26,217 bases of DNA. Origin: a virus. The stretch spans positions 1-26,217 of IMG/VR virus record IMGVR_UViG_3300050014_000540; one strand, given 5' to 3'. The translations under genes were made by a program, and so were the position numbers. Shown piece by piece: positions 3,022 through 15,680 of this stretch (its first letter is position 1; each line of letters opens with the position of its first letter). The notes under the pieces are model-generated. The model searched no databases. It worked only from the letters and a program-made list of their open reading frames with translations, and was not told the origin of the DNA.

Positions 3022-4725
3022 TTAGATTGGTTGGCTACTAATAGGATCAGCATCCCCTCCAAGGTCTATATCATCTGGTCCATAATCTATTAAAGGGTTT
3101 TCAGGATCTATATCATCTGAACCATAATCTATCTGAATCCCCCCAACAATTGTAACATAAACTCCAGGAATAACTAGATTATCAATAACCGATTCTAAAA
3201 GTTGAATACTTAAAAATGGAACAGTAATTGGTACCATAATAGTCATTCTTTTATTTTTTAATAGAAAATGTCCTGCAAAAGTACAGGGAGTTCCTGTTTG
3301 TAAGTTACCTCGAACATCAGCCCCTGCTCTACAATAATTAGGATACTGATTTGTAATAATAATCTCATCTACTGTAATGTTTAATATAGCATTAATAGCC
3401 TGTTTAAGTCCTGCAATTGTAGTGTCTGCCATTCTAAATGCTATAATATTGGCTCTGTAAGTATCGTCATCCATACCATTTCTTGGTATTCCAAACCAAT
3501 CTCCATAATAATCTAATTGCTTTCCAGTGGCATATTGTAATAAACGTGCACGTGCATTACTAAAAATGTCAACTTCAATACTACTAAATTCCTTACCTAT
3601 ACTTTCATCAATCATAATCCTACCAGGATTATTTTCAATTTGAAGATTACTATGTTCTGATAAACGGTTTCTTATTTCAAGTCCATAATCAATTTGTGAA
3701 CTAGATTCCATGTTAATTACATATAGTTGAGAATATATATTTGAAATATTTCCTTCTCCATCCATTGCAAAATATTTGAGGATTGTTGAATATTGATACT
3801 CTGAAATTAAAATATTATTAGTATAAATAGGACTTGACTCATCTGGAATACTACCATCAAGAGTATAATAAATAGTTCCAGGAGTATCTGTGGATAATTC
3901 TACACTTACCAAATTAGCATATTCGTTACCAGGAGGGTTACAAGTTATTATTGGTGTGAACTTTAGTGTAGAAGTGAGATATGGCCATGCCCATAAACTG
4001 TAACCATCAGGATTTACAAGTAAAACATTTTGTATATCGGATAATAAAAAATTATCATCCCATTCACTGGTAACTCGGTTAGCATCGTCACTATAAGTTG
4101 ATAATGCTGGGATAAATTTATTATTCCCTACTTGGGATTTGATATATTCTACTGCATTAATTACGAAATTGGAATCTGTATTACCATCCCGGTGTGTACT
4201 TTCTGGGAGTAAATAATCACAATGTGGTGCTATTTGACTGTATAATGCAGCATTTCCCTCATACATTGCTATTGAAAAGATAAGATTAGGGTTTGCGGAA
4301 TTTATTGTACTGTAAGAGTTAGTGGCTATATTTACCATTGTCGCTCTTTGTGTAGTGAGTTGACCTGTATGATAATAAGCAAGAGGATATACAAAATCAT
4401 TAAAACTTATACCCGTAATTCCGGGACAGTCATGTATAAAATTAGTTAAAGCATTTAATAAATTCGTTAAAAATGAAGAATCAGCAGGGTCAGAATAGCT
4501 TAAATCTGTATTATAAAACTCTTGGATAGTTGGATGAAATTTTATTCCTGCATTTATTGCATATCCTTGAATTGTATTAGTTAATGCTACACAGTTGGCA
4601 TAGTTATCAACAATATTTCCTACAATCTTACTAAAATCTGTTATACCTCTACTTGCAAGGTCATTCACAGCATCTTGGGTGACTGTTGAAGTCATATATG
4701 CCCATCTTATTTGGGGGTTTGTCAT
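3022..4725 (-). CDS. Baseplate wedge gpI-like protein fused to TIM-barrel-like and chitobiase-C-like domains
   Basis: This 567-aa protein has three parts. Residues 1-250 look like a TIM-barrel glycoside-hydrolase-like domain, with APHCDYLLP near 166-174 and IPALSTY at 205-211. Residues 265-337 match the chitobiase/FN3-associated beta domain pattern (GTIYYTLDGSIPDESSP, then FAMDGEGNIS). Residues 345-527 match phage tail protein I/YmfQ-type wedge proteins (ATGKQLDYYGDWFGIPR, then DDTYRANIIAF). The C-terminus repeats IDYGxDDID at 532-540 and 546-554. In ordinary contractile phages gpI lacks the first two domains, so this protein probably displays a wall- or glycan-contacting module on the baseplate. 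The barrel is paralogous to the N-terminus of the 802-aa hub protein. Catalytic activity is unproven. It starts 7 nt after the baseplate J stop. Confidence 0.82.
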   Translation of the reverse strand: MTNPQIRWAYMTSTVTQDAVNDLASRGITDFSKIVGNIVDNYANCVALTNTIQGYAINAGIKFHPTIQEFYNTDLSYSDPADSSFLTNLLNALTNFIHDCPGITGISFNDFVYPLAYYHTGQLTTQRATMVNIATNSYSTINSANPNLIFSIAMYEGNAALYSQIAPHCDYLLPESTHRDGNTDSNFVINAVEYIKSQVGNNKFIPALSTYSDDANRVTSEWDDNFLLSDIQNVLLVNPDGYSLWAWPYLTSTLKFTPIITCNPPGNEYANLVSVELSTDTPGTIYYTLDGSIPDESSPIYTNNILISEYQYSTILKYFAMDGEGNISNIYSQLYVINMESSSQIDYGLEIRNRLSEHSNLQIENNPGRIMIDESIGKEFSSIEVDIFSNARARLLQYATGKQLDYYGDWFGIPRNGMDDDTYRANIIAFRMADTTIAGLKQAINAILNITVDEIIITNQYPNYCRAGADVRGNLQTGTPCTFAGHFLLKNKRMTIMVPITVPFLSIQLLESVIDNLVIPGVYVTIVGGIQIDYGSDDIDPENPLIDYGPDDIDLGGDADPISSQPI

Positions 4726-4731
4726 ATATCA

Positions 4732-5868
4732 TCAGCTCGTAATTTGTGTTAAATTAACATTACCTAATTTAATGGCTTCATCATTATTAATATCTACATT
4801 AGCTACTGGAGATGTGATGGTATAATCTAAAAATGTGTTGTTAAGACTGTTTACGATAATCATTTGTAAAACACTTAAAACAATACCTTCAGCACCATTT
4901 AATCCAACATAACTAACACCATAACTGGTAGTTCCACCATTAAAATAACATGTAATATCCGCTGCTAGTAGAGGTTCAATAGTCGTCCAAGAATAACCCT
5001 CTTTAAGTAAAACAGATACATTCACATCTTGAGTTAAAAAGGTAGGTTTTACAACCAGTACATTCACACCACCAATCATGTGGTCTTCTTGTTCAAAAAG
5101 AGTTACAACAGCACTAACAACATCATCAGGAGTAGGTTTAGTGGTTCCATTAACAAGAAGTTCTATATCAAAACCGGGATCTAGCGGTTTGTTAATTACG
5201 GCAACATCATGAACACCAACAACTGTAGTGGCTTCAACTTTATACCATGTTATACTACCTGTTATGTTTCCTTTTCCAGCTTCTAATATCCTTTCTTGGA
5301 ATGGTGTATCATCTTCAACATCTGTACCATTTGTAAAGGGTTGTGGATTATTAACAGTTAAATCTTCGATAGTATTATTAAACGTGTCAATCTTACCGGC
5401 AATAACATTCCCATTAGCACCGCCTATACTAGCAGTTCCATTAAGATTTAATGTTGTTGAACCTACTATTAAAGTAGCATTCCCGACACTTTCAAAATAT
5501 AAAGTTGGATCGGTACTGCAAAGAAATAGGGTTCCATCTGGAATTAAGATATCATAAGTTTTAGTTTCAGGACTTGTAATAACAAGTGAACCGGTACTTT
5601 GAACGGTCTGTTTACGTTTGCAATTAACTAGAATACCAATACCATCTAACCAATCACCACTAGCTGTATGGACAAACCCCATACGTAACATAAAGTCGAT
5701 TAAAAATCTTTGATCACGTACTGTTATCCCTATACTTTCAAGTAGGTTTCTAGCCTCAGCACCTTCATTAAAATCTGTTATGACCGTTTGGGCTGTTCTA
5801 AAATAGTCAATTATACGTTGTGTGATAACGTCCTGGTTTTCTAATACATAAACTGGAGAATCTACCAT
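4732..5868 (-). CDS. Baseplate J-like wedge protein
   Basis: A 378-aa protein of the baseplate J (P2 gpJ/Mu gp47/XkdT) type. The N-terminus has the helical wedge pattern with GDWLDGIGILVNCKRK around 90-107. The middle carries the typical IPDGTLF and NPQPFTNGTDVEDDTPFQERIL segments, and further on a WYKVEATTVVGVHDV stretch. With the gpI-like and gp25-like proteins on either side it builds the baseplate wedges that trigger sheath contraction. It begins at the ATG at 5868 behind AAAGGAGG, overlapping the end region of the upstream gene. Length and motif order fit the family; confidence is high. Confidence 0.92.
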   Translation of the reverse strand: MVDSPVYVLENQDVITQRIIDYFRTAQTVITDFNEGAEARNLLESIGITVRDQRFLIDFMLRMGFVHTASGDWLDGIGILVNCKRKQTVQSTGSLVITSPETKTYDILIPDGTLFLCSTDPTLYFESVGNATLIVGSTTLNLNGTASIGGANGNVIAGKIDTFNNTIEDLTVNNPQPFTNGTDVEDDTPFQERILEAGKGNITGSITWYKVEATTVVGVHDVAVINKPLDPGFDIELLVNGTTKPTPDDVVSAVVTLFEQEDHMIGGVNVLVVKPTFLTQDVNVSVLLKEGYSWTTIEPLLAADITCYFNGGTTSYGVSYVGLNGAEGIVLSVLQMIIVNSLNNTFLDYTITSPVANVDINNDEAIKLGNVNLTQITS

Positions 5869-5872
5869 TCAT

Positions 5873-6256
5873 TTAACCTCCTTTTGTAAAAATAATATTT
5901 GTTGGAGTGTCTTCTCCGATTAATTGAACATTTACATTACATTCAAAACCATTAAGTGTATAAGAAACATCAATACTATTAATATCCTGTACACGAGGTT
6001 CTTGTAAAAGGCATACAGTTGTATATAGTATGATTAACTGTTTACCAACTTCGATATCCGTACTTCCTATCACTTCATCAGATTGATTACCATAGTTAAT
6101 ATAGCCAAATGCATTGAGTTCATTCAATTTTGTCATTAATCTATTATAAACTGCCTGAATAGCATTATCAACACCAAAAACCGTTAAGAAGTCCCCTTGA
6201 GGGTTGGCTTCCCAGCTTGAATTAATATCACATCCAAAATCAACATTATCAACCAT
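5873..6256 (-). CDS. gp25-like / DUF2634-type baseplate wedge protein
   Basis: A 127-aa protein in the order expected of the small wedge protein between the spike and baseplate J. It contains DFLTVFGVDNAIQAVYNRLMTK near residues 22-43 and a later beta-rich ending. The gp25/GPW (W of P2) and DUF2634 (XkdS) families have this length and arrangement, initiating sheath assembly on the baseplate. The start at 6256 has a GAGG site at normal spacing. The family call rests partly on synteny, since conservation in this group is low. Confidence 0.75.
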   Translation of the reverse strand: MVDNVDFGCDINSSWEANPQGDFLTVFGVDNAIQAVYNRLMTKLNELNAFGYINYGNQSDEVIGSTDIEVGKQLIILYTTVCLLQEPRVQDINSIDVSYTLNGFECNVNVQLIGEDTPTNIIFTKGG

Positions 6257-6269
6257 AAAAATAACCTCT

Positions 6270-6521
6270 TTAAACTTTACCTATAACAACAGGATTCCCT
6301 ATATGTCCCCCTACAAAAATAACAAGAACATTATCATTTACATTGAATGTAATACTAGAACCTGTTTGGAGAATAGGAACATTAGGAAGGTCTAAACCAT
6401 TATTAAGTGTAATATCTACCATACTCCCATTAACAGCTTGAACATTAGCCATTGTTGAAGGTTCAACAAGATTATACCAATCCTTTGTCATCCGACGGAT
6501 TTGATGTGTAAATTCTTTCAT
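6270..6521 (-). CDS. Minimal OB-fold baseplate spike protein
   Basis: An 83-aa protein with the core pattern of the gpV/gp5 spike OB domain: AxVQAVNGSMVDITLNNG, then a VPILQTG strand, then a VNDNVLVIFVGGHIGNPVVIG ending. Phage spikes usually follow this domain with a beta-helical needle and sometimes a lysozyme; both are absent here. The protein may be only the adaptor between tube and tip. Its start at 6521 directly abuts the stop of the 802-aa hub-lysin gene, and the ribosome binding site GGGGATGTG lies inside that gene's last codons, so translation is probably coupled. Confidence 0.75.
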   Translation of the reverse strand: MKEFTHQIRRMTKDWYNLVEPSTMANVQAVNGSMVDITLNNGLDLPNVPILQTGSSITFNVNDNVLVIFVGGHIGNPVVIGKV

Positions 6522-8930
6522 TTAATATGCACATCCCCTTATTTGGGTTTTAGAAGTACAACTTGTATCAAATATTTTAATTACATTATTCACATTTACA
6601 ATAACATTATAATGACCCATGCCACTACAAGTTGCATGAACTCTCTGAGCTGGATAACCCAAACCTTGGAGTAATGCTACCGCTGCCAAAGCCTGATCAT
6701 CACAATTTGCTTTACCATTAGGAGCATTAGCTAAAATATAAGTTGCAGCAGCAGTTGGAGATTCCCCATGATGTGAATCCCAATAATATGAATATGAAAC
6801 ATTATCTCGGATCCATTGATAAAGTTGGCATGGCGTTCTAACAGTTGCTGGTAATTTTGCAGCTAAACCTGTGATTGCATCGGTACTACTAACAGTACAT
6901 GTTGTACTACTTGTTACAGAACCAGGTATTTCACATACTGGTCTACTACTTGGGGTAGGTCCTGATAATTGGGTTAAACGAAGACCTTGTCCACTCATCT
7001 TGATTTTTCCTTTGGTGGCGTCATAATCACGATCACAACCATTATAAGGGGGTCTACCTATACCGCATGTTAATTCACCTTCAGGAACACCTTTCGGGTT
7101 AAAATGTAGAGTTCCATCCTTACCACAACCCGGACAATGATTATCAAAACAAGATGCATAATTACTGTAACTTAAACCAGTACCGCCAACACTAGGTTTA
7201 CCAACAACACAAATACTATTATTAGGATTACCTCCGGCGGTTGTAGTACAAACAGTTGCCATATTAGTAATAGGATCAACATATATCCAGTTACTCGGTA
7301 ATGGCGGTTTACCATCAAGACATGTTATAATAGTTTCTTCACCACTTGGATCAATCTTTACTTGTACTTCCTGTGTATAATAAGCTTTAGTTGCAATATT
7401 ACTCCATTTTGGAGGTACAAATATGCACCATTCCCCTTCACCAATATTTAAAGCTTGAGGTATTGTTATTGTATTTGTCCATCGTCCACTATTATCATCT
7501 TTAAAGAGTTTATCAGCAGCAGTTTTAGCCATACCAGTATCTGTAATATTACTATCCTCAAGTATATCATCTAAATTCCCATATTTAAGAACATACGATA
7601 CATTTGAATCATTGTATAATAATTCTCCATCCTTTCCTAATACTACAATACCTGTAACCACATTGGTATCATTAAGATCTATAGTATAATCTGATACACA
7701 TTCTTCTGCAACAAAAACATATCCCATCGTTGATTGGGGTGTTTCTCTAAGAATGGGAATCCCATCTTGATTCATTAAAAATTCAAGACCTTCAATATTA
7801 GCTAGTTGATGCATTATATCAAGATTTGTTGCGGTACTTCCTGCAAGCATTGTATGTACTGTACTTGTTTCCATTATCCCTTGTGTTGGCAGACCATCTG
7901 CAGCTAATAAATCCTTTATTATCTTACTTATTTTGATATTGTTATATTGATAATAGGTTTTATCAAAAAGCAGTCGATTATAATCTAAGCAAGTATATGT
8001 ATAACCATTCTGTGTTTCTTTATTTTCTGTAATTTGTCCTCCGAATGATTTGTGTTCCCCTGTAATATTAACACGGCTCATATTGTCATAATAGTTTGGA
8101 CTTTCAAATTCAACACTATTAGCTGCAAAAAGAGTATAAGTTAAAGTGCAACTGTAAAATGGTGCTGTATAAGTTCCATAGATTTGTGATTTAGTAGTTG
8201 GTGTTATAGTAGAAGGTCCAACATAGATATTGGTTCTAGGTTTCTCAGGGGTGACGGATGGGGATGTTGGAGATGTTGGTGTTATACTTGGAACTTCTTT
8301 AAAGTTACTTAATCCATATCTAAAGAGTCCTAATCCTTCTATATACGGTTTAATTGCATCTATTTCATAAGTTAGAATAGTATTAGTTTTAGCTACTACA
8401 TTGTTATCACTTACATATGTTTCGAGTGCTGGATAGATTTTACCAGGATATGTAGTGTTATATGATTTGATATAATTATTTAAATCAGTTATAGACTTAT
8501 TATAATCCCCTAAATAGAGCATGGGCATAAGGTAATCACATAATGGTGCTAATAAATCCCATCTTTGATTTCCATCCCATCCATCTGCTTTTGTGCATAT
8601 TATAAGAGTTTTCCCTTGTGTATCGGTTCGGAGTTGTTCAACTTCATTGATATAACTAGCCATATCGTAGGTTTCCAAATCCATAACAGTATGAAATCCC
8701 ATAGCTGTAACTTCTTCAGCATGACTGAATCCTTCCCAAACCCAAGCAAATGGTGATATCCCGGCTGAAACTATCTTAGAATAGTAATGGTTAAGATTAG
8801 TATAAATTGTTGAACCTGAATTTGTTGCCCTAATATATACCGCGGATATTCCAGACCGTTTAAGTGCACCAAAATCTATCTGTGATAAGGGTGTTACATC
8901 CGGATTTATAAAGTATCCTACTGTTGTCAT
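6522..8930 (-). CDS. Baseplate hub (gpD/XkdQ-like) fused to pseudomurein endoisopeptidase-like domain
   Basis: An 802-aa multi-domain tail-tip protein. Residues 1-210 form a TIM-barrel-like domain (VMDLETYD at 82-89, CDYLMP at 131-136, IYPALETY at 165-172). A Ser/Thr/Pro linker lies at 213-232. Residues 235-550 resemble the hub ring protein gpD/XkdQ (TYTCLDYNRLLF at 311-322). A zinc-ribbon-like segment has C599, C602, C622 and C632. The C-terminus (about 670-802) is a transglutaminase/papain-type domain with C743 in GKANCDDQA, H773 in GMGHYN and D788 in IFDTSC. This fits pseudomurein endoisopeptidases (the PeiW/PeiP/PeiR group), which cleave the peptide cross-links of methanobacterial walls. 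Location at the hub suggests local wall opening during DNA entry. A free lysin for exit is not visible in the window. Starts at the ATG at 8930 behind AAGGGGAA. Confidence 0.85.
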   Translation of the reverse strand: MTTVGYFINPDVTPLSQIDFGALKRSGISAVYIRATNSGSTIYTNLNHYYSKIVSAGISPFAWVWEGFSHAEEVTAMGFHTVMDLETYDMASYINEVEQLRTDTQGKTLIICTKADGWDGNQRWDLLAPLCDYLMPMLYLGDYNKSITDLNNYIKSYNTTYPGKIYPALETYVSDNNVVAKTNTILTYEIDAIKPYIEGLGLFRYGLSNFKEVPSITPTSPTSPSVTPEKPRTNIYVGPSTITPTTKSQIYGTYTAPFYSCTLTYTLFAANSVEFESPNYYDNMSRVNITGEHKSFGGQITENKETQNGYTYTCLDYNRLLFDKTYYQYNNIKISKIIKDLLAADGLPTQGIMETSTVHTMLAGSTATNLDIMHQLANIEGLEFLMNQDGIPILRETPQSTMGYVFVAEECVSDYTIDLNDTNVVTGIVVLGKDGELLYNDSNVSYVLKYGNLDDILEDSNITDTGMAKTAADKLFKDDNSGRWTNTITIPQALNIGEGEWCIFVPPKWSNIATKAYYTQEVQVKIDPSGEETIITCLDGKPPLPSNWIYVDPITNMATVCTTTAGGNPNNSICVVGKPSVGGTGLSYSNYASCFDNHCPGCGKDGTLHFNPKGVPEGELTCGIGRPPYNGCDRDYDATKGKIKMSGQGLRLTQLSGPTPSSRPVCEIPGSVTSSTTCTVSSTDAITGLAAKLPATVRTPCQLYQWIRDNVSYSYYWDSHHGESPTAAATYILANAPNGKANCDDQALAAVALLQGLGYPAQRVHATCSGMGHYNVIVNVNNVIKIFDTSCTSKTQIRGCAY

Positions 8931-8943
8931 TTTTTTATTCCCC

Positions 8944-9708
8944 TTATGTTGCTGAAATTTGCCATTTGTCCCCTACTACCATTTCATTACCTGTATATGT
9001 GGGTTTAACTTGATAAGTAACAAAATTAACTTGTATCATATTGAAAACATAATCTTCTTGAAGTTTCATAGATATTTTAAACCGGTTAGGTTTGTATTCA
9101 TCACTTGTAAAGCTGGTTATATGGTAATGTCCATTATATTTTGCACTAGATAGACTCGTAAAAGCCATACGTTTACCATATTTATAGAGACCTGCAATAT
9201 TCTGATACTCGTTACCGGTTGCTAAGACACTAAGGGATAAAAGCCTTCCACCACTCCCCATATATGATGTTTGACTACCATCAGCACCTACAATGGCTTT
9301 ACTGGGACGATTAAGTTGTGGATCCAATGCTATATCTAATACTTTAACTTTTACCATTCCAAATGTAACATAATTCGTTTGGTGTAATGGTAACACGTCT
9401 CTTGGTGGGGTTACAGGTATTACAGGTTTAGGTGGTGGTGTGGGTGTAACTGGTGTGGGTGTTCCGGGGAGAATTACCCATACAAAAGCTGCAAATGTAT
9501 TATTATGACTGTAATACCAATCCCACCAACGAGTTTCCATATCCATAAATCGTGTCCATGATACCCATTCTTTATGTGCTGTTGTAATATAGACTATTAA
9601 TGGATTGGATCCATTATGATCAATTCTCCATTGACTTACACGAACATCCATATCCCTATAAACATTTTTAGGTATTTGACGTGTTTTATCGTTACTAATA
9701 TCTCCCAT
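8944..9708 (-). CDS. Hub-associated baseplate protein with N-terminal pseudomurein-binding-like segment
   Basis: A 254-aa protein in two parts. Residues 1-75 resemble a pseudomurein-binding repeat: a helical start with IPKNVYRDMDVRVSQW, an NGSNPLIVYI strand, then a helix with FMDMETRWWDWYYSH. A proline-rich linker (PGTPTPVTPTPPPKP) covers about 80-105. The rest is beta-rich, with AKYNGHYHITSFTSDEYKPN, and looks like the small baseplate protein that joins tube end and hub (XkdP/gp53 position, without an obvious LysM). LysM in bacterial phages binds peptidoglycan; a pseudomurein-binding repeat here would be its archaeal counterpart. The wall-binding call is by pattern only. It is the first late gene after the + strand cassette at 9.8-10.4 kb. 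Confidence 0.65.
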   Translation of the reverse strand: MGDISNDKTRQIPKNVYRDMDVRVSQWRIDHNGSNPLIVYITTAHKEWVSWTRFMDMETRWWDWYYSHNNTFAAFVWVILPGTPTPVTPTPPPKPVIPVTPPRDVLPLHQTNYVTFGMVKVKVLDIALDPQLNRPSKAIVGADGSQTSYMGSGGRLLSLSVLATGNEYQNIAGLYKYGKRMAFTSLSSAKYNGHYHITSFTSDEYKPNRFKISMKLQEDYVFNMIQVNFVTYQVKPTYTGNEMVVGDKWQISAT

Positions 9709-9791: not shown

Positions 9792-9923
9792 ATTAAAAGA
9801 GCTGAAACAACAATACAAATAAAGAAAGGTTTTAGACACCATATTCCACGAACCATATTCGAGGCTGTTGGTGCGAAAGAAGGGGACTATGTAAAAGTGA
9901 TAATAATAAAAGAAGGTGATTGA
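9792..9923 (+). CDS. AbrB-like DNA-binding protein, probable ATT start
   Basis: A 43-44-residue frame with the AbrB/MazE swapped-hairpin pattern: short beta strands TTIQIKK, HIPRTIFEAVGAK, then EGDYVKVIIIKEGD. The family binds DNA as a dimer and often autoregulates. No ATG or TTG is available in frame; a GTG at 9783 lies inside the Shine-Dalgarno GAGGTGG. I therefore place the start at ATT 9792, 4-5 nt behind that site; a GTG leaderless start is the alternative. The stop lies just before the lipoprotein ATG (9926), whose ribosome binding site is within this gene, so the two are coupled. It is paralogous to the frame at 20711-20848 (17 of 43 residues identical by eye). Confidence 0.7.
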   Translation: MKRAETTIQIKKGFRHHIPRTIFEAVGAKEGDYVKVIIIKEGD

Positions 9924-9925
9924 AG

Positions 9926-10363
9926 ATGAAAAAAGTAATAATAGGAATAATGGGATTGTTATTAGTAGTTGTAATGATATCAGGATGTACTAGTTCGGGA
10001 GATTCAACTTCAAATAAAATGTTTAACGGAAGTAAAATGTCATTTCAATATACGGCGGATTATAATGCAACCGAATCCACAGCAATGGACGGTATGGCTA
10101 TTCTTCAAAAAGAGGGCCATGAGGTTACTGTTGAAAAAATGAATATGTCTCTAATTGATGATTCTTTTTCAGCCCTTTTAGATGGTTATACTTACAGTGG
10201 AATGTACAGAAATAATGCCACAAATACTACATACAAGGTTTATACTATGAAGGATGGCAATCCTACGATTTATATGTTTGAAAAGAATGGTAAAGTCTAT
10301 GAAATTATTGGTGGGCCGTTAGATCTTGATGTTATGGAAATAATAGTTGAAACTATTAAGTAG
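9926..10363 (+). CDS. Lipoprotein, PsbP-like, moron cargo
   Basis: A 145-aa protein with a classic lipoprotein signal: MKK, a hydrophobic core to residue 18, and the lipobox ISGC with the lipidated cysteine at 21. A Ser/Thr-rich spacer follows, then a domain beginning FNGSKMSFQYTADYN that resembles PsbP-related lipoproteins common in methanogens. It would sit on the outer face of the cytoplasmic membrane, under the pseudomurein. I chose ATG 9926 over an upstream TTG because GGTGAT lies at correct spacing. It is read against the late operon and follows the AbrB-like gene. A role in blocking superinfecting virus DNA entry is suggested by analogy with prophage lipoproteins such as Ltp of TP-J34; not shown. 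Confidence 0.75.
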   Translation: MKKVIIGIMGLLLVVVMISGCTSSGDSTSNKMFNGSKMSFQYTADYNATESTAMDGMAILQKEGHEVTVEKMNMSLIDDSFSALLDGYTYSGMYRNNATNTTYKVYTMKDGNPTIYMFEKNGKVYEIIGGPLDLDVMEIIVETIK

Positions 10364-10412: not shown

Positions 10413-10433
10413 AAGAGAGTTTAATTCCCTCTT
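10413..10433. terminator. Possible weak bidirectional terminator hairpin
   Basis: The arms AAGAGAG and CCCTCTT can pair with one mismatch around a 7-nt loop, between the end of the lipoprotein gene and the last codons of the tape measure gene. A T-rich stretch follows on the + side. It lies where two converging transcripts meet, which fits a terminator, but the stem is short and the signal is weak. Confidence 0.3.
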
Positions 10434-12670
10434 ATATTATTTTCTTTTGTAAATCTTTGGATAACCTGATCAACAAGATAATCAGCTGTTTCTTTACTAT
10501 CTACACTTCCAATGTTCCATGTATGGTTATGTGTTACATTTGTTGAACTACTAGAATTAGTTAGGTTAGTTGCTATATGTGCACTTCCAGATGCTCCACC
10601 TGTTAAGTTATTAGCAGTATGAGGATCACCCGCAGCACCTCCTCCGAAGAGTGCCTGTACTGCACCAGATAACTGATTCCAAGCGTCTACTACAGCCTTT
10701 ATAATACTCTGTACATAAGCCCATGCAGCAGCTAAAGCAGCTACAACTGCATTATATATGCCCCAGAATGCATTTGCACCCGCAGCATATATCTGTTGAG
10801 CACCACCAACGATAAAAGCGATAGTATTATTCCATGCTCCCATAATATATGCAACAGTATTAGCCCACGCTCCTCCAATGTATGCAACTGTATTATTCCA
10901 TACACCTTGGAAAAATGCTGCTGTATTATTCCATGCTCCTTTCATATAAGCTAATGTTGGTAAAAGCATACGGGTATAGATACGTTGGCCTATTAATGTT
11001 ATTGTAGAAATGGTATTAGTCCATGCACTTTTTAAAAAGGAACCCGTGTTATTCCATCCTCCTTTAATAAGTGCCATTTCTCTGTTCCATTCTGTGCCTA
11101 CTTTTTTAGCATCTGCTGACATTTTAGTGAATGGTGAACTTACAGCACCTCCTATATTTCCTAAAGCCCCTTTAATTCCGCTGTTTTGTCCTTGTTGGTC
11201 ATTCACATATTTTTGTGGATTATTTGTAGGGTCTTGGTTACCAGTTAATTTACTCATAAGGTAAGGTAGAGGTAAATGAGATGCGAAACTTGTGGTAAAT
11301 CCTTCTGCTTGTATTAATGGGCTATCTCCACCAGGTATTTTCTTAATTTCATCAACTTTATGTAAAGCCTGTGCCACATCAAGAGCAACATAAACAGTAA
11401 TTAATCCTAAACCAGCAATTAATCCTAAAGTTCCTAATAATGCTGCTGCTGGAATTTCTGCTATACCTGCCGCAGCTCCTATTGCTATAATTGCAGGCCA
11501 TAATGGTGCCAACAATAGTGCAGCCCCACCAATAAGTAGTAATACACCTAACACTAGAGGTAATACTAATAGCAATGTTTTAACAGGCCCCGGTAATGCT
11601 TGGAATCCCTTTAATAGTCCGGTAAGTATTGGGAGTGCCCAACTTGCAAATTCTTTTAGGATAGGGAGCATTTCATAACCTACACTTGTTATAAATTGAC
11701 TCCATAAGTCGGTTAATTGTGCCATTATTCCCTGATAACTATGTCTATATGCCTCGTTGGCAGCTGCTCCACCTTGTAATGCTACTGTCTGGTTAAGTAA
11801 AGCGGTTCTTTGATCAGTAGTGAGGTTAGTCCAATCCTTCATAGTTAGTCCATTCTCTTGTAGGACTTGATCAAACTTTTTAGTATCAATACCAAGCGTT
11901 GTTAAACTTTTAGCCATAATTGTGGGCTTGTTAATTAAATTAGTCCAAGCCTCAGCGATTGTATTAAAACCCGCAGGATCTCCAGGATATTTTAGCATTG
12001 CAAGGGCACCCATAGCCTCAACACTTGTTTGGGCTATCTCTTTATTAACAACACCTACACGTGCCAAGTTACCAATAGCACTTATAATCTCTCCACGTGA
12101 TCTAGCAGTGTTAGATGCAATACTATCTACCATATCTTTATAATCTGCCTTAACCGAGTCCATTTCCATACCAGTTTTACCAAGAGCAACGGTAAGTCTG
12201 CCCCAGTTCTGTTCAGATGCTGAAGCGGCCTGAATAGCCATATAGGCAATCATAGCATAGGCAGCTATTATTACACCACCTGTAGCTACCATACCCATTC
12301 CTAATTGTTTGGTGGATATGCCTAATTGGTCCATAACCCCTCGAAGTTTACTTGTTTTAGTGGATGTGGTTTCCATATCTACACCCATTTGTTGAAGTTT
12401 AGACGTGTCCATTCCCATCATTGCGGGAGTTAAACCTCCAGTAATTTGTTTTGTAGCAGCGTTTGAAGCAATATTAAAATCTGTCATTTCTTTGCGGGCA
12501 TATGTCATTGCTTTGCCATTAGATTCCCAATATCGAGCTCCGGTAGCATTAATGGCATTTAAACTCTGAGACTCCTTACTCAAGCCACCCATAGCTGTAC
12601 TAGCCTGTACAAATCCATTATTATCCATTTTGGACGTGATTTTTATGAGTAATTCTTCTACCATAGACAT
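10421..12670 (-). CDS. Tail tape measure protein
   Basis: A 749-aa protein, the longest single-function tail gene here, placed after the tail assembly chaperone as usual. It has a helical N-terminus, a middle hydrophobic block at about 364-432 (LLLVLPLVLGVLLLIGG and later AAALLGTLGLIAGLG) that would form membrane-inserting helices, and a repeat zone. Trp recurs at 528, 539, 550 and again at 580, 591, 602, 613, exactly 11 residues apart (GAWNNTVAYI-type units), as in known tape measures. At roughly 1.5 A per residue, a common rule of thumb, the tail would be near 110 nm. The start at 12670 lies behind AAGGTGA; a second ATG two codons on is possible. Confidence 0.93.
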   Translation of the reverse strand: MSMVEELLIKITSKMDNNGFVQASTAMGGLSKESQSLNAINATGARYWESNGKAMTYARKEMTDFNIASNAATKQITGGLTPAMMGMDTSKLQQMGVDMETTSTKTSKLRGVMDQLGISTKQLGMGMVATGGVIIAAYAMIAYMAIQAASASEQNWGRLTVALGKTGMEMDSVKADYKDMVDSIASNTARSRGEIISAIGNLARVGVVNKEIAQTSVEAMGALAMLKYPGDPAGFNTIAEAWTNLINKPTIMAKSLTTLGIDTKKFDQVLQENGLTMKDWTNLTTDQRTALLNQTVALQGGAAANEAYRHSYQGIMAQLTDLWSQFITSVGYEMLPILKEFASWALPILTGLLKGFQALPGPVKTLLLVLPLVLGVLLLIGGAALLLAPLWPAIIAIGAAAGIAEIPAAALLGTLGLIAGLGLITVYVALDVAQALHKVDEIKKIPGGDSPLIQAEGFTTSFASHLPLPYLMSKLTGNQDPTNNPQKYVNDQQGQNSGIKGALGNIGGAVSSPFTKMSADAKKVGTEWNREMALIKGGWNNTGSFLKSAWTNTISTITLIGQRIYTRMLLPTLAYMKGAWNNTAAFFQGVWNNTVAYIGGAWANTVAYIMGAWNNTIAFIVGGAQQIYAAGANAFWGIYNAVVAALAAAWAYVQSIIKAVVDAWNQLSGAVQALFGGGAAGDPHTANNLTGGASGSAHIATNLTNSSSSTNVTHNHTWNIGSVDSKETADYLVDQVIQRFTKENNIRGN
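10802..11089 (-). repeat. 11-residue tandem repeat zone within the tape measure gene
   Basis: The stretch encodes residues 528-623 of the tape measure protein. Units of 11 residues begin with W (WNNTAAFFQGV, WNNTVAYIGGA, WANTVAYIMGA, WNNTIAFIVGG), with an earlier block at 528-550 in the same spacing. The two blocks are 30 rather than 33 residues apart, so the phase shifts between them. An undecad Trp period is a known feature of tape measure proteins. Confidence 0.8.
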
Positions 12671-14255: not shown

Positions 14256-15680
14256 TCAGACCTCCCTTGTAAGTTTTACACGGATATCTATATGTTTAAC
14301 AATTCCAGGGATGATAATTTCAAGGTCTGCATATACGGCTCTACTGTTTGTGCTGTTTTCTACTAAGTTAATAATAATATCTTTAACAATATTATTGGTT
14401 ACAAGGTCCTCTTTACGATTTTCAAGTTCTCCCTGAGCAGATTCTATACTTGTTGCTATACCTGTTTGTCCTAACCAATCTGTCATGTCAAAGTAGTTCA
14501 CAACAGCACAGAGAATACCTACCACATATCCTTCACTAGTTATAACTTTCTGACCTAGGTCCTCAACATCTCTTATACCAGTTACATCACTTACAATACC
14601 ATAAGTCCTATTTTCACGACTTATGAGTTTTAACATCATAACTCCACCATCAACTAATGCATAACCTGTGTCGGTTGGTCCAAAGTTAAATTCTGTACTT
14701 AAACCTGTAATATCGGATATGATTTTATTAGTCATTGATTCATTAACGGGCATTCCTGCATTGAATGATGCTATACGAGCAACACTTTCGGCTTGTGTTA
14801 AGGTATTTCCATCTACATCTATTGGTTGGTATACATATTTCATGAATAGACTGTCAGCAGTGGCTTCATTGGTTAATGTTGTACCAACACTGTTGCTACT
14901 GAGTAATGGGAATATTCCCCGGCTTGGTTTTGCTAGTGCTAATCTATTGTTTAGATAGGTTTCAATGCTTGGAAGGTATGTTGGATCTGGAGTGTCGGTA
15001 AATATTAGGAAATCAAATTTTTCATTTACAATTGTTGCGAGTGCTGTTGTTAACATAGCAGTTGTTATACCTTCTGCTGCTGTTTCTGTTCCATCTGTTA
15101 ATGCGGTATCAGATACTGTTACTATCGTTCTTGCAAGTTCGGCTGAACTACCATTTGCTATTATAAATCGAGAGGAAGCATTGATTTTGTTCATCATATC
15201 TGTAGCGGATAGACAGTTATCATACTCTTCAACTATTACATCATTTAATTTAAGTGTGAATTTCTGTCCAGATACGCTCCCGGCGGCTACACTTATTTTT
15301 AATCCATTGGTTGCACCATTTGCCCATATACCACCACTATTAGCGGTTATATGTAAGGCTATTGCCGGGGTTACATCATTTAGTACAGCTGATGCTTTGA
15401 CGGTTGTTCCTGCTTTTACACATACACAACCAGTTGCACCATAGTTATTATTTTGAAGGTCTTGTTTGAATGCATATTTAATTACATTAGATCCTGAATA
15501 GGATGGGTTTGATCCCATAGCTTCTTGAGCAATTAAAGCATTAGGGAAAAAGTATGGTACATTACTATCTCCACGTTCAAAGTTTCCTACTATCGCAATT
15601 TTACCGGCAGTTCCAAAGGCGCGTGATACATCTGGTTGTACTATTTCTGCACTAATACCAGGTATTACTGTGTTTACCAT
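14256..15680 (-). CDS. Contractile tail sheath protein
   Basis: A 474-aa protein of the tail sheath family. The N-terminus (MVNTVIPGISAEIVQPDVS, then GKIAIVGNFERGD) is typical of sheath proteins, as is the C-terminal order: DGGVMMLKLISRENRTYG, a helical WLGQTGIATSIESAQGELENRK part, and an IPGIVKHIDIRVKLTREV ending. It surrounds the tube and shortens to drive the tube through the wall. Its presence defines a myovirus-type tail, noteworthy because cultured viruses of pseudomurein methanogens (psiM-type, Drs3) have non-contractile tails. It starts at the ATG at 15680 behind AAAGGAGG. Confidence 0.92.
   Translation of the reverse strand: MVNTVIPGISAEIVQPDVSRAFGTAGKIAIVGNFERGDSNVPYFFPNALIAQEAMGSNPSYSGSNVIKYAFKQDLQNNNYGATGCVCVKAGTTVKASAVLNDVTPAIALHITANSGGIWANGATNGLKISVAAGSVSGQKFTLKLNDVIVEEYDNCLSATDMMNKINASSRFIIANGSSAELARTIVTVSDTALTDGTETAAEGITTAMLTTALATIVNEKFDFLIFTDTPDPTYLPSIETYLNNRLALAKPSRGIFPLLSSNSVGTTLTNEATADSLFMKYVYQPIDVDGNTLTQAESVARIASFNAGMPVNESMTNKIISDITGLSTEFNFGPTDTGYALVDGGVMMLKLISRENRTYGIVSDVTGIRDVEDLGQKVITSEGYVVGILCAVVNYFDMTDWLGQTGIATSIESAQGELENRKEDLVTNNIVKDIIINLVENSTNSRAVYADLEIIIPGIVKHIDIRVKLTREV

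Follow-up and report, generated by a model that had tools for sequence, protein, structure and literature searches.

The protein encoded at positions 6522-8930 of IMGVR_UViG_3300050014_000540, a 26,217-base virus contig of IMG/VR, is probably the baseplate hub of a contractile-tailed Methanobacteriales virus that carries its own wall-opening enzyme, a predicted pseudomurein peptidase serving entry. The open reading frame is a four-part tail hub, composed of a TIM-type barrel, a gpD/XkdQ hub, a four-Cys ribbon and a Cys-His-Asp transglutaminase-like domain. To avoid circularity, profiles were built without the window (the whole 26,217-nt stretch) and then scored on its ORFs (Z=10000), and each of the four parts of the 802-residue protein was found again by these window-free profiles. 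The parts are arranged as follows:

6522-8930 (-): whole hub ORF, 802 aa, intact, ATG start, AGGGG upstream
8292-8930 (-): TIM-type barrel, residues 1-213, candidate acids D84/E86
8235-8291 (-): Pro/Thr/Ser-rich linker, residues 214-232, recognized by its sequence
7251-8234 (-): gpD/XkdQ/YqbQ-type hub, residues 233-560 (PF24032, window-free profile, Foldseek)
6966-7220 (-): four-Cys ribbon, residues 571-655, C599/C602/C622/C632 (conservation and window-free profile)
6546-6875 (-): predicted transglutaminase-like peptidase, residues 686-795 (PF01841, conservation and model), with triad codons for C743 at 6702-6704, H773 at 6612-6614 and D788 at 6567-6569

The residues singled out in the initial annotation (C599, C602, C622, C632, C743, H773 and D788) are all exactly placed. 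A chimeric assembly is ruled out by the intact ORF together with a syntenic relative, L076, which has the same hub-transglutaminase fusion. No match was obtained in a tRNA and Rfam search of the window or in scans of viral contigs with the whole 802-residue protein and with the barrel, and no close DNA relative was found in a phage collection. Neither the whole chain nor the transglutaminase domain had a relative in a phmmer search of the PDB, and the barrel had non-significant matches only.

The hub assignment rests on family, profile and fold. The YQBQ hub family PF24032 matches residues 289-489 (E 7e-11, 42.5 bits against a Pfam cut-off of 27), and the window-free hub profile reaches an iE of 1.9e-54. 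A hub ring had been proposed at residues 235-550, with a structural match of this segment to gpD-type hubs set beforehand as the test; such a match was found, and the domain is now placed at 233-560. The best Foldseek matches of an AlphaFold2 model of the hub, ribbon and transglutaminase parts (pLDDT 66.6, pTM 0.48) are the baseplate hubs of phiCD508, the MuSo2 43-kDa protein, Mu gp44 and T4 gp27, with E-values down to 1e-15; these are matches to the hub and bear on its fold, not on that of the peptidase. The protein thus resembles gpD/XkdQ/YqbQ and T4 gp27-type hubs (PF24032; Mu gp44, phiCD508) in hub fold and in its place in a baseplate operon, but its chain adds a barrel, a four-Cys ribbon and a transglutaminase-like domain. 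The surroundings of the ORF are a contractile tail/baseplate operon, in which the hub gene lies between that for an XkdP-like protein and the spike, sheath initiator and J genes, in agreement with the earlier idea of an enzyme on the puncturing device:

14256-15680 (-): tail sheath (phrog_279)
10421-12670 (-): tape measure protein (phrog_58)
8944-9708 (-): XkdP-like protein (PMBR at 14.2 bits, under the cut-off of 24.9; C-terminal part conserved in syntenic viruses)
6270-6521 (-): likely spike OB protein (weak PF04717 match, E 0.023; same place in L065 and L076)
5873-6256 (-): sheath initiator (PF10934 above cut-off)
4732-5868 (-): baseplate J protein (PF04865, phrog_6)
3022-4725 (-): gpI-like protein (baseplate PHROGs at residues 337-459) whose N-terminus is another barrel, of the host DUF4015 type

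The N-terminal barrel of the gpI-like protein scores 2.7e-11 with a window-free host barrel profile; the protein also has a CHB_HEX_C domain, and this second barrel is missing in L076. The N-terminus of the XkdP-like protein is weakly PMBR-like, and a peptidoglycan-binding-type repeat can be made out by eye at the C-terminus of its relatives (L080 6224-6919, L078 6154-6924, L009 3918-4730); wall-binding modules seem to be swapped among XkdP-like proteins. Several related viruses also encode a small secreted protein next to the tape measure gene, in antisense orientation to the tail operon (9920-10363 (+) in this contig; L078 3336-3716 (-); L080 5593-6069 (-); L066 11480-12595 (+)). In this contig and in L078, a lipobox makes it a lipoprotein, and its position and type suggest superinfection-exclusion or other surface-changing cargo.

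The C-terminal domain matches Transglut_core (PF01841) at residues 701-770 (E 3e-6, 27.9 bits against a Pfam cut-off of 23), and window-free profiles detect it when built from the hubs of other viruses (6.6e-13), from host wall proteins (4.5e-12) or from Pei enzymes (2e-4), the host wall transglutaminase profile being better than that of Pei. Among homologues, the window included, C743 is conserved in 43/43, H773 in 42/43 and D788 in 35/43. In the model, a helix begins at C743, the next strand contains H773, and D788 comes after a further strand, an order which fits the transglutaminase arrangement at the moderate confidence of the model.

Pei enzymes are peptidases with a C-H-D triad and cleave pseudomurein at its Ala-epsilon-Lys bond (PMC2989375). 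The initial annotation had described the domain as Pei-like and proposed a comparison with these proteins. Its Cys-His-Asp domain stands, as does the kinship, for hub transglutaminases and viral Pei align in profile comparison (hhalign, 97%, E 3e-11), but the family does not, since the Peptidase C71 model (PF12386) gives no match to the 802-residue protein and the family found is Transglut_core. By sequence comparison, then, the predicted peptidase is a Transglut_core member, kin to Pei (C71) by profile and not a Pei by family test. In a tree of 53 transglutaminase domains, this hub and that of L076 stand beside Pei with modest support (81/88), but Pei, host proteins and other hubs are all candidates for the nearest kin, and AU tests rejected none of the alternatives tried. 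By profile comparison, PeiW, PeiP and PeiR share a peptidase superfamily with the hub domain; they are stand-alone lysins of about 300 residues with a C71 match, and PeiW and PeiP have N-terminal pseudomurein-binding repeats in the chain, whereas this protein is fused to a hub and shows no such repeats (PMBR) in its chain, the weak PMBR-like segment being in a neighbor only.

The enzyme-bearing hub is not a one-off, a point on which the initial annotation is to be corrected. Thirteen distinct hub loci of methanogen viruses and proviruses were found, this contig included, and a transglutaminase is present at all 13, within the hub ORF in 8/13 and on the adjoining ORF of a split hub in 5/13. For seven of the 13, the hub profile was the sole means of detection, and the domain is present in every one of them (7/7), so the pattern is no artefact of detection. 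A hub with a transglutaminase is the rule for the hub loci found here, and the barrel alone is particular to this virus. The split hubs (L039, L078, L085, L096, L097) consist of two overlapping or adjoining ORFs, the second of which starts with the ribbon and ends with the transglutaminase.

The closest virus, L076 (IMGVR_UViG_3300050034_000272), is syntenic across the tail, and its 625-residue hub matches at 44% in the hub and 38% in the transglutaminase domain, without barrel or ribbon and with another middle domain. In this hub (L076 5569-7446), residues from about 345 to 500 form an unnamed domain of ~150 residues in place of the ribbon, with no Pfam match. In siphovirus-type relatives, MSTV1 (L001 266-4747) and PhiF3 (L003 1-1884), profiles detect a transglutaminase-like stretch in the tape measure ORF, for which Pfam gives weak support in PhiF3 and none in MSTV1; tail-borne enzymes may therefore sit on different tail proteins in such methanogen viruses.

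The four ribbon cysteines, which had been read as a zinc-ribbon-like segment, are conserved in 34/34 homologues (window included), and the window-free ribbon profile reaches 4.7e-23. No Pfam family covers the ribbon, which probably represents an undescribed extracellular domain common to methanogens and their viruses. It is likewise present in small proteins, where a signal-like N-terminus precedes it (L042, L047, L051, L052, L054 and L067 18544-18981). In the hub-like protein of vir249, a Cys/His stretch can be seen by eye after the ribbon, with no profile support.

The N-terminal barrel, proposed at residues 1-210, is borne out at 1-213. Its nearest relative is a secreted host protein (46-50% identity), from which a window-free profile gives 1.9e-57, and its model, of moderate confidence (pLDDT 62.6), consists of eight beta/alpha units. 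D84-x-E86 (nt 8673-8681) lies at the end of strand 4 in this model and is conserved in three homologues. Foldseek matches are generic TIM barrels, sugar epimerases first, with GH25 structures among many matches. The GH25 lysozyme family (PF01183) was rejected as the barrel family, at 18.1 bits against a cut-off of 27 over residues 17-68 only (E 0.004). A window-free profile of the host DUF4015 barrel detects the C-terminal half only (iE 4.2e-9), and no DUF4015 (PF13200) match is listed in the Pfam scan of the barrel. The fusion of barrel and hub occurs at 1/13 distinct hub loci, that of this virus only.

The nearest host barrel is encoded by a reading frame of 252 codons, seen in host genomes, that begins with a signal-like peptide and has chromosomal neighbors on its flanks in one genome (cas genes, glutamine synthetase). 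No ATG, GTG or TTG precedes the signal-like peptide in L063 9261-10019 and its equivalents in L062 and L069; in three genomes ATT comes directly after GGGGGTGTTTAG, and an ATT start is thus possible.

The link to the host is also seen in the terminase DNA of the contig, which is 67-69% identical to Methanobacteriales genomes. Methanobacteriales surface proteins combine a DUF4015 "putative glycosyl hydrolase" barrel, pseudomurein-binding repeats and Transglut_core, and in several of them the ribbon sits between those modules; TG-type adhesin-like proteins of the hosts have been described (PMC11532034). These pseudomurein-associated proteins (PMBR and Transglut_core, often with DUF4015 barrel and ribbon) have the transglutaminase, the ribbon and a related barrel in common with the hub, but they are surface proteins with Ig-like and pseudomurein-binding repeats and contain no hub. 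As related barrel, ribbon and transglutaminase occur in both, virus and host use a common stock of wall modules.

Since the domain is joined to pseudomurein-binding repeats in host proteins, and viral Pei are related to it by profile, the hub enzyme is best regarded as a putative pseudomurein peptidase. Three hub copies would surround the spike, and contraction would bring the C-terminal domain to the pseudomurein, where it would cut peptide cross-links and open a local hole for the tube. Lysis would be left to a separate Pei-type enzyme encoded outside the contig. L078 combines a transglutaminase in its hub with a Pei encoded separately, which matches C71 at 74.9 bits and PMBR slightly below the cut-off; this combination suggests distinct enzymes for entry and lysis. 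The entry reading is weakened by the C71 model giving no match, by the moderate confidence of the structures and by the role proposed for host transglutaminases, which is to make pseudomurein cross-links, not to cut them (PMC2812497). The barrel, perhaps gained in this lineage only, might bind or cleave glycan, a role for which the conserved D84/E86 and the related barrels in host wall proteins argue, and glycan cleavage by it is plausible. A fuller version is more tentative and rather doubtful as a whole: the hub as a two-enzyme pseudomurein drill, in which the transglutaminase-like domain would cut peptide cross-links and the barrel would hydrolyse beta-1,3-linked glycan, both derived from host wall-remodelling modules. 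No characterized enzyme hydrolysing beta-1,3-linked pseudomurein glycan was found in the literature searched.

Alternatively, the C-terminal domain and the barrel could be wall-binding modules for adhesion, with catalysis dispensable, so that the virion would dock and force alone would drive the tube. The weak match of the barrel to GH families, with GH25 under its cut-off, and the absence of the barrel from all other hubs speak for this, but the catalytic Cys and His persist across very divergent hubs, which binding alone would not require, and adhesion is an unlikely explanation. Less probable still is a bond-forming transglutaminase, which would tie the virion covalently to the wall or link virion proteins to one another. 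Such an activity would suit the Pfam family, Transglut_core, and the cross-linking of pseudomurein peptides proposed for host members (PMC2812497), yet Pei, the nearest enzymes with tested activity and profile relatives of the domain, hydrolyse the cross-link by the same triad (PMC2989375), and tail-borne wall enzymes are normally lytic. Marginally the least probable is an enzyme mainly for lysis, cleaved off the hub, or produced separately, late in infection: no other transglutaminase was found on the contig and five relatives have the domain on a separate, adjoining ORF, but the contig ends within a tail-spike-like ORF and a lysis gene could lie beyond, L078 encodes its C71 Pei downstream of the tail genes, and in split hubs the domain still comes after hub sequence within one ORF.

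Bacterial phages are well known to carry lysins on their tails. In tail-associated lysins such as T4 gp5 lysozyme and the Prophage_tail endopeptidases, the wall enzyme is likewise placed on the puncturing device, and the hub model matches the fold of the tail-associated lysin of phage NF5; in comparison with these bacterial lysins, the enzyme of this hub belongs to another superfamily and would act on another wall, pseudomurein. A hub-borne transglutaminase-type enzyme for the pseudomurein wall was found neither in the literature searched, which was covered in part, nor, as a fused hub-transglutaminase, in annotated phage records. Viral pseudomurein enzymes are treated in a review as serving exit (PMC4456609), and a result on SSV19 was presented in a 2025 paper as the first demonstration that an archaeal virion hydrolyses glycans (PMC12042106).

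The tail-tip peptidase and the host-like barrel suggest a route by which methanogen viruses may pass a lysozyme-proof wall, and with a named protein, its active-site Cys and a pattern seen across the family, entry through pseudomurein becomes directly testable. The barrel, ribbon and transglutaminase held in common also point to the host proteins that are likely to remodel the wall, and offer starting points in the search for enzymes to open methanogen cells.
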